DNA of 64,000 bases from an uncultured Alphaproteobacteria bacterium (GTDB lineage Bacteria > Pseudomonadota > Alphaproteobacteria > RF32 > CAG-239), in NCBI GenBank assembly GCA_944393225.1, contig CALXZK010000007.1:1-64000 (forward strand), given 5' to 3'. This document shows, piece after piece, positions 41,381-46,101 of this stretch (positions are counted from its first letter, which is position 1; the number at the start of each line of letters is the position of its first letter). Made by a program: the position numbers and the translations under genes. The notes beneath the pieces were generated by a model, which saw only the letters and a program-made list of their open reading frames with translations, was not told the origin of the DNA and did no database searches.

Positions 41381-42391
41381 ATGGCTGATACGAAAGAGAA
41401 AAAAGAACAAACCGAAAATTTGCCCGTTAAAACGCATGCTTTCGGTAAATTTACTTTCAGAGTTTTGTTGATTGCGCTTGTTTTAGGCGGCGGATATGCC
41501 TTTTGGAAAAATCCGAATTTGGCTGATGATTTGTCTGCTAAAACAAAAGAGCTTTTTGCAAACACAAATAGCGAATCCGCAACTCCTGAAGTTGACCAAG
41601 TGGCTTTGCTTAGACAAGAGGTGAAAGATTTAAGAACCCAAATTGCTTTGTTGCAAAGTTTGCAAGCGCAAAAACAAGATACCGCTACTTTGGAAAAACG
41701 CTTTGATACGCTCGAAAAATTTAACCAAAACGTGATTAATTCCAAAGCTGATGTAGCGATAGTTTTGGGAATGTTGACACGTCTTGATGCCGCAGAACAA
41801 CAGTTGGATGTGTTGAGCCGAATCACAGACCAAAGTGCCGTTGTTTTAACCGCCTCCATGATGGTGAAAGATGCTGCCGAAAAGGGCGGTAGTTTTATTT
41901 ATGAAGCCGAGGTGTTGAACCAGCTTGCCGCTGATAACGTCAAAATCAAACCCGCTTTGGAAGTGGTACAAAAAGCAGCCGTTGACGGTATTTTCAATAA
42001 TGCTTATTTGATGAAGTCTTTTGATGAAGTTTATTCCTCTTTGCTTGAACAGACCAAACAAGAATCCGAAAAAACATGGAAAGATCGTTTGAACAGCAAA
42101 ATCAGCGAATATATTAAAGTGCAGAAAAACGGTGAGAAATCTCCGGTAAATCAAAATATTCAAGAATTGGAAAATGTAAAAATTTTGGTAAATTCAGGAA
42201 ATATTAAAAAAGCTGTTGTATTGTTACAACATCTTTCCAATGCGAATCTGCAAAATGAGCCTTCGCTCATGGCTTGGATGGAAAAAGCTCAAACAAAAAT
42301 TGCTTTTGATGAAGCCATTTCTCAAATTGCAACTTATTATTTGGCGGCTTTGAAGGTAAACTTTATTAAGAAAGAGACGCAGCATGACTAG
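41381..42391 (+). CDS. Mitofilin/Mic60-like membrane protein
   Basis: A 336-residue protein with a short cytoplasmic start, one membrane anchor (about 25-45), a coiled-coil region (about 70-120) and a C-terminal helical domain resembling the mitofilin signature. This is the alphaproteobacterial relative of Mic60 (COG4223), normally encoded beside hemY and heme-synthesis genes, as here. It shapes or scaffolds inner-membrane invaginations. AAGGAA precedes the ATG, and its end overlaps hemY by 8 bases. hemC and hemD, frequent upstream partners, are absent. Confidence 0.8.
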   Translation: MADTKEKKEQTENLPVKTHAFGKFTFRVLLIALVLGGGYAFWKNPNLADDLSAKTKELFANTNSESATPEVDQVALLRQEVKDLRTQIALLQSLQAQKQDTATLEKRFDTLEKFNQNVINSKADVAIVLGMLTRLDAAEQQLDVLSRITDQSAVVLTASMMVKDAAEKGGSFIYEAEVLNQLAADNVKIKPALEVVQKAAVDGIFNNAYLMKSFDEVYSSLLEQTKQESEKTWKDRLNSKISEYIKVQKNGEKSPVNQNIQELENVKILVNSGNIKKAVVLLQHLSNANLQNEPSLMAWMEKAQTKIAFDEAISQIATYYLAALKVNFIKKETQHD

Positions 42392-43844
42392 AAAAACTTC
42401 AATATTTATTTTCCTTGGACTTATTTTTACTTTTACAATATGGATGATGGACAGAGCCAGCCTGGTTGCCGTAAGCTGGCGTAAGGTTTATTTTGAGTTT
42501 TCTATTCCGGAAGCAATGCTCTTCCTTTTGGTGATTTTTGCCATTATTGATTTGTTGACCAGAATTATCAGAGCCGTGCAAAAAGCTCAGCTCAAAGAAG
42601 TTTACAGAACTTCCGTCTTTAGAGATAATACCGATGAAAATGCTGCTATTGATGTTTTGGCCGGAAAAATTAGCGAGAAAATGATTATCAACCGCCATGA
42701 TTTTGATAACTCCATGCTCCTTGTTTTGCAGGCTATGACCTCTATTACCGCCGGTGATATGAAAGAAGCGCGCTCCAATCTTTCTAAACTCAAAAAAATC
42801 ATTGGTGATGATCCGATCATCGATGTCTTGAAAATGAAAATTTATAAAGGCGAAAAAGACTTTGATAAGATGGAAAAACTCTCCGGTAAGATGATGAAAA
42901 ATGAAAATATTCAACTTATCGGTTTGAAAGCTGCCGTTGAAGCACAAATGCAGAAAAAAGAATTTAAAGAAGCCTTGGCTACCGTTAATAAAGCTTATGA
43001 ACTGCGTCAAGATTTGTATTGGGTTATTGAAAGTGCCTTTGAATTGCGTGCCAAAGCCAAAGATTGGGAAGGTGCTATGCAGGTGCTTGATGCCGGCTTG
43101 AAAAAGAAAATTATTAATAAAGTTAACTATGATAGATTTAAATCTATCGTGCTTTTGGAAAGAGCTTTTGAGTTCAAAGCCAAAAAAGATGAAGTTAACT
43201 TCTTTAAGTTTGCTTCTCAATCTTTTGAAGCTGATGAAACTTTGGTCGCTGCCGCAATTTCTTTGGCTCGTTATTACAAAGAGCATGATAATCAGGTCAG
43301 AAAAGCCGCTAATATTTTGACTCAGGCTTGGAAGAGAAATCCGGTTGATGAGTTGGCTTATGAATATATGAAACTTTGGCCTGAAGATGATATTTTAGAC
43401 CAAATCAAACGTATTGAAGGTTGGGCTAATATGAACAGCTTGCGTCCGTCTTTGAATAATCGATTGATTGCCGAATTGGCCGTTAAAGCCGGTTTGTGGA
43501 ACAAAGCTAAAACCGAAATTGATATGTTTATCATTAACAATCCTTGTACCAAGAAAATTTGTTCTCTCTTGGCAACCTATGAAGAAAAAGCAAATAAAGA
43601 CAAAAAAGCTGCCGCTGAGTGGAAACAACGCATGAAAACTTGTGATGAAGATTCCGGTTGGGTTTGCGAAGACTGCGGTGAAGTTTCTGATAAATGGGAA
43701 GCCGTTTGTGATAAATGTGGTTCTTTCGGTACAAAAAAATGGCATCTCTATATTGAGAAAAATGAAGGTGCTAAATTTGCCGAAGTTCCGCAAGATATTG
43801 CAGAGCAAATTCCGGCTCTTGAAAATGAAGAAGATGATGATTAA
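42384..43844 (+). CDS. hemY: HemY-like TPR membrane protein
   Basis: A 486-residue protein with two N-terminal membrane segments (about 5-25 and 40-60) and a long series of TPR helices. The C-terminal part has a zinc-ribbon-like pair WVCEDCGE and AVCDKCGS, common in alphaproteobacterial HemY and in LapB. Despite the name it is not protoporphyrinogen oxidase. It is coupled to the Mic60-like gene by an 8-base overlap and followed 14 bp later by the ADP-dependent kinase, so all three may share a transcript. Confidence 0.83.
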   Translation: MTRKTSIFIFLGLIFTFTIWMMDRASLVAVSWRKVYFEFSIPEAMLFLLVIFAIIDLLTRIIRAVQKAQLKEVYRTSVFRDNTDENAAIDVLAGKISEKMIINRHDFDNSMLLVLQAMTSITAGDMKEARSNLSKLKKIIGDDPIIDVLKMKIYKGEKDFDKMEKLSGKMMKNENIQLIGLKAAVEAQMQKKEFKEALATVNKAYELRQDLYWVIESAFELRAKAKDWEGAMQVLDAGLKKKIINKVNYDRFKSIVLLERAFEFKAKKDEVNFFKFASQSFEADETLVAAAISLARYYKEHDNQVRKAANILTQAWKRNPVDELAYEYMKLWPEDDILDQIKRIEGWANMNSLRPSLNNRLIAELAVKAGLWNKAKTEIDMFIINNPCTKKICSLLATYEEKANKDKKAAAEWKQRMKTCDEDSGWVCEDCGEVSDKWEAVCDKCGSFGTKKWHLYIEKNEGAKFAEVPQDIAEQIPALENEEDDD

Positions 43845-43858
43845 CGGAGATTGATGAG

Positions 43859-45259
43859 ATGACAGATTTTGCTAAAGCTAAAACCTCTTGGCTTGAAAAA
43901 TATAAAGTTGTACCGCAAACTTTACAAGACGTTCAAAAGGTTGAAAGCGCGGCGACTGCTTTTAATACCAATGTGGATGCGGTGTTAAAAATCAGCGGTA
44001 AAAAAATAGCCGAGTTGGCAAAAAAGCAAAATCTGTCGTTGAAACAACTTCAAGATATTAAAGAAACTAAGCTTTCTACCCCGCAAGATGTTATTAAAGG
44101 CATTTTCAAGTGCTTTTCTAAAGGTATTGCTGAAGAATGGTTGACCGAAGATAAGCTCGTTTATGATTGGATGGTCAAAAATTTAGGTTATGACCGTTTG
44201 CAGATGGGTGGACAAGGCGGCATTGTGGCTAATATCTTAGCCGTTGCCGGTGTGAAAAAAGTTTATGCTCATGCCAACTCTTTGCCCGAATTGCAGGCTC
44301 AACAATTTTTAACTCTTGATAACTTGCTTTCTTTTGATGAAAAAGGTAATGAAAAGCCAGCTTATCAAATTGACCGCAAAACCGATATTCCTCTCATTCA
44401 CTGGATTATTGAGTTTGATAAAGGTGATAAAGTTGAGCTTGATGGCGAAACCTTTGTTTGCCCAAAAGCAAACCGTTTTATTGCGACCTATGATCCATTG
44501 AACCTTCATTTGGTGATGGATGAAAACTTTGTGAAAGCTGCTGAGAAAAATAAGCTCAACTATATGATTTTATCCGGTTTCCATGCATTGACCGAAAATA
44601 ATGACGGTGTGGCACTCACCCATAGTGTTTTGCCGATGCTTAAGGCTTGGAAAGATAACGGTACCATCGTGCATTTGGAAATTGCTTCCACACAAGATTT
44701 AGCTGTACGTAAAGCCATTATTGAAAAGATTGCACCGAAAGTAGATTCAATCGGTATCAATGAGCGTGAAGCTATTGATATTTTGGAGATTATCGGACAA
44801 GAAAAATTGGCTGAAACTTGCGAAAAAGATACGCATAGTCAAAATATGTTCAAAGCGCTGGTGGCTATTAAAAAGGCTCTCAAAGCTCCCAGAATTCAGT
44901 TGCATATGTTTGGGCTTTATATCACTTTGCAAGACAAAAACGCTTTTGTTTCTCCTGAAGCCAACCTGCGTGGTATGATGACTGCCGCCACAATTGCCGC
45001 CGGAAAAGCCGGTACGGGTAGCGTGAACCAAAAAGAGAACTTGCTTTGGGCGCAAGGTCGTGAAGTTTCTGATGTCGGCCTTAACGAGCTTAAAGATTTG
45101 GCATCTTATATCGGAGATGCTTCTTTGCTTGAAACGGGTATTTCAACCTTTGACGGTTTTGATGTTATTGCCCTTCCGACAATTTTGATTGAAAAGCCGG
45201 TTACTCTCGTGGGTATGGGGGATACGATATCGTCGATGTCGCTTGTCTCCGCAAGATAG
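43859..45259 (+). CDS. ADP-dependent glucokinase / phosphofructokinase family enzyme
   Basis: A 466-residue sugar kinase of the ADP-dependent (archaeal-type) ribokinase superfamily. Three family motifs are intact: HXE (H272-L-E274), NXXE (N301-E-R-E304) and GXGD (G452-M-G-D455) with D455 the predicted catalytic base. It would phosphorylate glucose or fructose 6-phosphate using ADP and forming AMP. The choice between the two substrates cannot be made by eye. Such enzymes are common in Euryarchaeota and rare in bacteria. CGGAGA precedes the start; it follows hemY by 14 bp and is followed at once by structured repeat copy 3. Confidence 0.85.
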   Translation: MTDFAKAKTSWLEKYKVVPQTLQDVQKVESAATAFNTNVDAVLKISGKKIAELAKKQNLSLKQLQDIKETKLSTPQDVIKGIFKCFSKGIAEEWLTEDKLVYDWMVKNLGYDRLQMGGQGGIVANILAVAGVKKVYAHANSLPELQAQQFLTLDNLLSFDEKGNEKPAYQIDRKTDIPLIHWIIEFDKGDKVELDGETFVCPKANRFIATYDPLNLHLVMDENFVKAAEKNKLNYMILSGFHALTENNDGVALTHSVLPMLKAWKDNGTIVHLEIASTQDLAVRKAIIEKIAPKVDSIGINEREAIDILEIIGQEKLAETCEKDTHSQNMFKALVAIKKALKAPRIQLHMFGLYITLQDKNAFVSPEANLRGMMTAATIAAGKAGTGSVNQKENLLWAQGREVSDVGLNELKDLASYIGDASLLETGISTFDGFDVIALPTILIEKPVTLVGMGDTISSMSLVSAR

Positions 45260-45447: not shown

Positions 45448-46101
45448 ATGCTGACAAAAACAGAGGCTAAAAGTTTAATAGACCAACTCAGAGATAAAGA
45501 AATTTCTTTAGGCAGAGTTCCTGATACTTGGTATACTTATGAAAATCATGTTTTGGGTGTAGCAAAAGTTGCTCAAACCATTGCGCAAAAAATTGAAGGT
45601 TTGAATCCTGAGAGAATTTATGTTGCGGCAATGCTTCACGATATTTCTCGCACTGAAGAGGAAAGAGAAAAGCGCTTTCACGGAATTTTGGGCTATGAAA
45701 AGCTGATTGATTTAGATGCTGATGCGGCTCGTTCTGCCATTACCCATATGTTTCCGTGGAATATTATACCGCCTTTTGAATCTTGTTCTAAAATGTTTTT
45801 CGGCAACAAAGCCGATTATGATTTTGTTGCCGCTTTCTTAAAAAATAATCCGCGAACGGATGTCGATTTGCTTATTCAACTCTCTGACACTATGGCAAAC
45901 AAGGATGGAATCGTTACTTTGGAGCAAAGGGCGCAAGAATATGCACAAAGGTTTAATATCTCCATACCCAAAGAAATGATTGAGCCACGTTATAAACTTA
46001 AAGCCTATTTTGATGACAAAATCGGCGGTAATGTTTATGACCTCTTTAAAGCCAAAGATATTGATGTGAATTATCAATCAAAAGTGCAGAAAGAGAGATA
46101 A
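45448..46101 (+). CDS. HD-domain phosphohydrolase
   Basis: A 217-residue metal-dependent phosphohydrolase of the HD superfamily, with H34 in YENHVLGVA, H64-D65 in AAMLHDISR, and a later D in LSDTMANKDG. It resembles small HD proteins such as YqeK or nucleotidases; the substrate is unknown. AGGA precedes the start. It is convergent with aroK. Confidence 0.8.
   Translation: MLTKTEAKSLIDQLRDKEISLGRVPDTWYTYENHVLGVAKVAQTIAQKIEGLNPERIYVAAMLHDISRTEEEREKRFHGILGYEKLIDLDADAARSAITHMFPWNIIPPFESCSKMFFGNKADYDFVAAFLKNNPRTDVDLLIQLSDTMANKDGIVTLEQRAQEYAQRFNISIPKEMIEPRYKLKAYFDDKIGGNVYDLFKAKDIDVNYQSKVQKER

Follow-up and report, generated by a model that had tools for sequence, protein, structure and literature searches.

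Activation of sugars with ADP is regarded as an archaeal trait, often tied to heat, and the characterized members of the ADP-dependent sugar kinase family are mostly archaeal. In the table of enzymes of a review from 2025, ADP-glucokinase (ADP-GK) stands under Archaea (PMC12965863), and our literature search found no paper on ADP-GK in the alphaproteobacterial lineage considered here. The residues K179, N181 and R212 bind fructose 6-phosphate (F6P) and are conserved only in the phosphofructokinases (PFKs) and bifunctional enzymes of the family, and their loss worsens the Km for F6P 200- to 1000-fold; E90 is conserved only in the glucokinases (GKs) and bifunctional enzymes, and the position of N181 is occupied by histidine in the GK of T. 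litoralis (Munoz et al., PMC7948494). Among the PFK-A enzymes, those carrying the signature GGDGSxxI are ADP-specific, as assayed in Synechocystis and Azospirillum brasilense, whereas the ATP type is marked by GGDGSxxG and the PPi type by GGDD (Shen et al. 2024, PMC11609450).

The window, i.e., the whole stretch of 64,000 nucleotides analysed here, comes from an alphaproteobacterium of the family CAG-239 (order RF32) and contains, where the initial annotation had placed it, the gene of a 466-aa kinase (Table 1). With a probability of roughly 0.74, we interpret the product as an ADP-GK of a bacterial PF04587 branch, encoded behind mic60/hemY-like genes and feeding an Embden-Meyerhof pathway in which PFK-A is also ADP-dependent. 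Family, fold, motifs, site residues, gene order, presence across the family and gene inventory come from computation; that both enzymes use ADP in vivo, that glucose is the main substrate, that the genes are transcribed as an operon and that the cell benefits is inferred.

Table 1. Features of the kinase locus and of two further sugar kinase genes in the same genome (window positions unless a contig is given).
Feature	Position	Strand	Basis
mic60-like gene, overlaps the start of the hemY-like gene	41381..42391	+	named by position; conserved beside tsaD in relatives
hemY-like TPR protein, upstream partner	42384..43844	+	TIGR00540 E 3.4e-18, below cut-off; conserved neighbour in relatives
GGAGA ribosome-binding site, 8 nt ahead of ATG	43846..43850	+	read from sequence
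ADP-dependent sugar kinase gene, predicted ADP-GK	43859..45259	+	full-length PF04587 match of 240.6 bits; Z 48.9 between the model and the ADP-GK of P. horikoshii
E93, corresponding to E90 of AncMsPFK (GK and bifunctional enzymes only)	44135..44137	+	alignment and PMC7948494
L179-I-H181, where ADP-PFK has F6P-binding K179 and N181	44393..44401	+	H181 is the glucokinase state (alignment and PMC7948494)
D212, replacing F6P-binding R212	44492..44494	+	alignment; D212 invariant in 45 homologues
HXE motif, H272-L-E274, Mg-ADP binding	44672..44680	+	H272 and E274 invariant (45-sequence alignment)
NXXE motif, N301-E-R-E304	44759..44770	+	first residue N, shared with PhGK; D in the PFK/bifunctional enzymes sampled
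GXGD motif, G452-M-G454-D455, catalytic base	45212..45223	+	invariant in 45 homologues
Sole PFK-A of the host genome, GGDGSMNI	G000 contig C2:88797-89702 (L116:5789-6865 +)	+	ADP-dependent PFK-A signature
ROK sugar kinase	L117:5425-6297 (G000 contig C30)		shares a 6-kb stretch with nagA and nagB; best score as N-acetylmannosamine kinase

In a profile search, Pfam PF04587 spanned residues 31-463 of the kinase (profile positions 3-429 of 430) with an E-value of 3.5e-71 and a score far above the cut-off of 27 bits; no second PF04587 gene occurs in the host genome. The catalytic residues of HXE, NXXE and GXGD are invariant across the aligned homologues, and next to these motifs the family residue R206 is kept as well. 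The prediction of an ADP-dependent sugar kinase with all three motifs intact was thereby borne out. A phmmer search against solved structures retrieved the same family, with the ancestral PFK 6c8z (AncMsPFK) as the best PDB sequence match. The AlphaFold2 model (mean pLDDT 92.8) found its top structural match in the ADP-GK of P. horikoshii (PhGK, 5o0j; rmsd 1.9 Å over 438 residues), followed in the ranking by Z through other ADP-GKs and then AncMsPFK. The cut-offs of the NCBIfam equivalogs for archaeal ADP-GK were not reached (209 vs 387 bits for NF010642, 194 vs 554 bits for NF010641), nor was that of the ADP-PFK model (197 vs 408 bits). The kinase therefore lies beyond the curated archaeal equivalogs, as one would expect of a bacterial branch of its own. 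By each computable feature the enzyme belongs to PF04587, with ADP as its presumed donor.

To which substrate the kinase is directed was assessed in an alignment of 118 rows with four PFK or bifunctional references and PhGK as the one specific archaeal GK. At the positions 179, 181, 212, 244 and 310 the kinase has L, H, D, H and N; the four PFK or bifunctional references uniformly have K, N, R, Q and D there, and PhGK has C, H, D, E, H and N at 179, 181, 212, E90, 244 and 310. Across 22 functional positions it deviates from PhGK at just two, namely 179 (L vs C) and one residue of the nucleotide site (M vs T). Thus, it presents the residues of an ADP-specific GK (E90 kept, the F6P-binding trio gone, histidine at 181) and not those of an ADP-specific PFK, and K179, N181 and R212 are missing from all of the approximately 111 bacterial sequences aligned. 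The glucokinase-type states at five discriminating sites therefore identify it as a predicted ADP-GK rather than a PFK, probably with glucose as the main substrate.

A kinase acting as an ADP-dependent PFK or as a bifunctional PFK/GK in the style of methanogens is improbable given the substituted F6P-binding residues, the PFK-A already present in the genome and the fact that the highest structural Z and the smallest rmsd belong to ADP-GKs; what speaks for it is that AncMsPFK, besides its rank in the sequence search, came first by Foldseek E-value, and that E90, D36 and R206 are common to the kinase and the bifunctional enzymes. Replacement of PFK by the ADP-dependent kinase, one form of the proposal that the gene substitutes for an ATP-dependent glycolytic kinase, was ruled out by the same PFK-A, the only one returned by a genome search for pfkA, together with the lost F6P-binding residues. 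Slightly less improbable, though still unlikely, is an enzyme serving mainly another hexose or derivative (glucosamine, mannose or 1,5-anhydroglucitol) beside a ROK glucokinase. Leucine instead of the cysteine of PhGK at position 179, an identity of only about 30% to assayed enzymes and the presence of a ROK gene in the host genome would agree with such a role, but the listed glucose contacts (D36, E90, GGQ, D471 and H at 181) are all in the glucokinase state, many relatives have no ROK whatsoever, and the ROK protein of the host is encoded close to nagA/nagB and scores highest as an N-acetylmannosamine kinase.

The single PFK-A is the only PFK gene of the host genome. Its signature GGDGSMNI recurs in 21/21 PFK-As read from the host family, and GGDGSxxI was found in several other alphaproteobacteria as well. 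In a phylogenetic tree, the host enzyme fell into a cyanobacterial/alphaproteobacterial clade with Acaryochloris (97/100), apart from the ATP and PPi types. Both signature and clade make it a predicted ADP-dependent PFK-A; annotation pipelines would label it ATP-dependent. Bacteroidota with the same ADP-GK have ATP-type and PPi-type PFKs in addition to a GGDGSQKI type, and exclusive possession of the ADP type is therefore an alphaproteobacterial feature.

According to the proposed scheme, ADP and glucose would be converted to AMP and glucose 6-phosphate by the predicted ADP-GK in the first Embden-Meyerhof step, and glucose 6-phosphate, after isomerisation by PGI, would be phosphorylated by PFK-A, again presumably at the expense of ADP. 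The AMP from both priming steps could be recharged by adenylate kinase, which we assume to be present, or by PPDK. Genes for PGI, PPDK and pyruvate kinase were found in the host genome. PPDK and pyruvate kinase occur together across the host family, and a stoichiometric recycling of AMP via PPDK in place of pyruvate kinase is therefore not put forward as a firm claim.

Searches of the host genome for glk and for a PTS EIIC (glucose permease) found neither a true Glk, a weak PF02685 match being the ROK protein, nor an EIIC. This ROK kinase could act on glucose. As a universal alternative glucose kinase, ROK was ruled out, because it is missing from many relatives; in seven genomes of at least 99% completeness ADP-GK is present, and ROK, Glk and EIIC are all absent. 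A full-length ROK was detected in all four tested near-complete genomes without ADP-GK, compared with 10 of the 32 that carry ADP-GK (Fisher p 0.017, uncorrected for kinship), a pattern that fits a functional exchange at the glucokinase step. From the suggested replacement of an ATP-dependent kinase, what stands is that ADP-GK may fill in for the glucose kinase.

Within the window, the stop codon of the hemY-like gene and the ATG of the kinase gene are separated by 14 nt, as the initial annotation had reported; the gene names in that report, mic60 and hemY, are less secure. The hemY-like name relates to a TIGR00540 match under the cut-off (65.6 vs 142 bits), and the mic60-like gene, named from gene order, yielded no Pfam or NCBIfam match. 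The suggested placement in a core gene neighbourhood was upheld: in relatives from the host family, down to about 51% identity, the kinase gene follows mic60 or mic60-hemY near tsaD and nth, mostly with gaps of 0-66 nt to the upstream gene. The kinase probably shares one transcript with the mic60/hemY-like genes. A promoter scan of the locus gave counts near chance, a terminator scan no clear operon end and an Rfam search no matches. Kinase loci of the Bacteroidota relatives have no mic60/hemY neighbourhood. In part of the relatives (L037, L042, L045-L048, L050 and others) a mic60-like ORF of about 350 aa abuts the kinase gene, and no hemY-like gene was recognised in between. In the window, a gene for an HD-domain protein (45448-46101, +) is located between the kinase gene and aroK; it was not seen in this position in relatives, including those as near as 97%.

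Survey of 48 CAG-239 genomes revealed PF04587 in 42 of them; one of the six others is only 59% complete. Given these six genomes, ADP-GK is dispensable in the host family. One genome was read from a sister family within the host order (G048), and it has the domain too; the 39 other families of that sample were negative. Among 385 alphaproteobacterial genomes five were positive, one of which (G097) lies outside the host order. The closest sequences from outside the Alphaproteobacteria, with approximately 49-53% identity, belong to Marinifilaceae, Salinivirgaceae, Melioribacteraceae and Spirochaetales. In the maximum-likelihood tree a long branch (100/100) separated all 58 bacterial rows from the archaeal ones, whose thin sampling comprised PDB chains and two genes from haloarchaeal plasmids; PhGK itself sits on a long branch. 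The copy of G048 groups within the host-family sequences (96/91), though it is located elsewhere than behind mic60-hemY.

The kinase is part of a bacterial PF04587 clade, and exchange among bacteria is likely. The acquisition proposed in the initial annotation, if taken as a recent and direct import from an archaeon, is in our judgement highly improbable, although the characterized members are mostly archaeal: the nearest kin outside the Alphaproteobacteria are Bacteroidota, Ignavibacteriota and Spirochaetota, and archaeal enzymes, thinly sampled as they are, share only 25-32% identity with the kinase across the fully supported split. With this sampling of PDB and haloarchaeal plasmid sequences, the gene tree did not nest the kinase among the archaeal rows. 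The proposed host-associated lifestyle accords with the records of several relatives, which are titled as animal-gut or rumen assemblies.

[FeFe] hydrogenases were detected in nearly all genomes of the host family, consistent with a fermentative anaerobe, and the scheme above would thus be set in a fermenting, [FeFe]-hydrogenase-bearing cell. Outside the host family, the ADP-GK gene of G048 is divergently oriented beside an operon of an NADH-dependent [FeFe] hydrogenase (L160:5911-11579), and that of G097 lies near hydrogenase-type NuoE/NuoF genes (L159:1-6578), which may point to a connection with anaerobic fermentation.

Taken by itself, the kinase adds a bacterial member to a family already known; more interesting than this single enzyme is the predicted pathway arrangement, with two superfamilies providing for ADP use at both steps. 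We incline, with some reserve, to the broader view that the whole gut-alphaproteobacterial family primes glycolysis twice with ADP, by a ribokinase-superfamily ADP-GK and an ADP-dependent PFK-A, without an ATP-dependent PFK and often without another recognised glucose kinase, which would make it a counterpart of archaeal modified glycolysis built from unrelated parts. If both priming kinases are ADP-dependent in bacteria of the animal gut, the trait would be uncoupled from thermophily, sugars would be expected to be used when the energy charge is low, yielding AMP, and the two enzymes would provide a test for convergent evolution in the choice of the nucleotide donor. It would also be a warning about mis-annotation, as a PFK-A of this kind receives an ATP-dependent label and the glucokinase step may seem to be missing.

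Among the known systems, animal ADPGK (5ccf, 5ck7) belongs to the same superfamily and catalyses the same reaction, but is far more distant, with a Z of 32 and approximately 20% identity. The ADP-GKs of Thermococcales (PhGK 5o0j/1l2l, PfGK 1ua4, TlGK 4b8s) share the full-length fold (Z 47-49), the catalytic motifs and the glucokinase-type sites; in contrast to them, the host kinase, approximately 26-31% identical, comes from a gut bacterium that is not a hyperthermophile, falls into a separate bacterial clade and has leucine at 179 where PhGK has cysteine. With the ADP-PFKs and bifunctional PFK/GKs of Thermococcales and methanogens (1u2x, 5od2, 6c8z/6xio) it has family, fold and Mg-ADP site in common, whereas K179, N181 and R212 are absent and (N/D)XXE appears in the N form. 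The host PFK-A shares GGDGSxxI and its clade with the assayed ADP-dependent enzymes of cyanobacteria and Azospirillum brasilense (PMC11609450), from which the host-family proteins, known from sequence, differ in being paired with an ADP-GK. Finally, the archaeal modified Embden-Meyerhof pathway, with ADP-GK and ADP-PFK, places both priming phosphorylations on ADP, as is predicted for the host, but there the second step is catalysed by a ribokinase-type ADP-PFK, to which the PFK-A of the host is unrelated.
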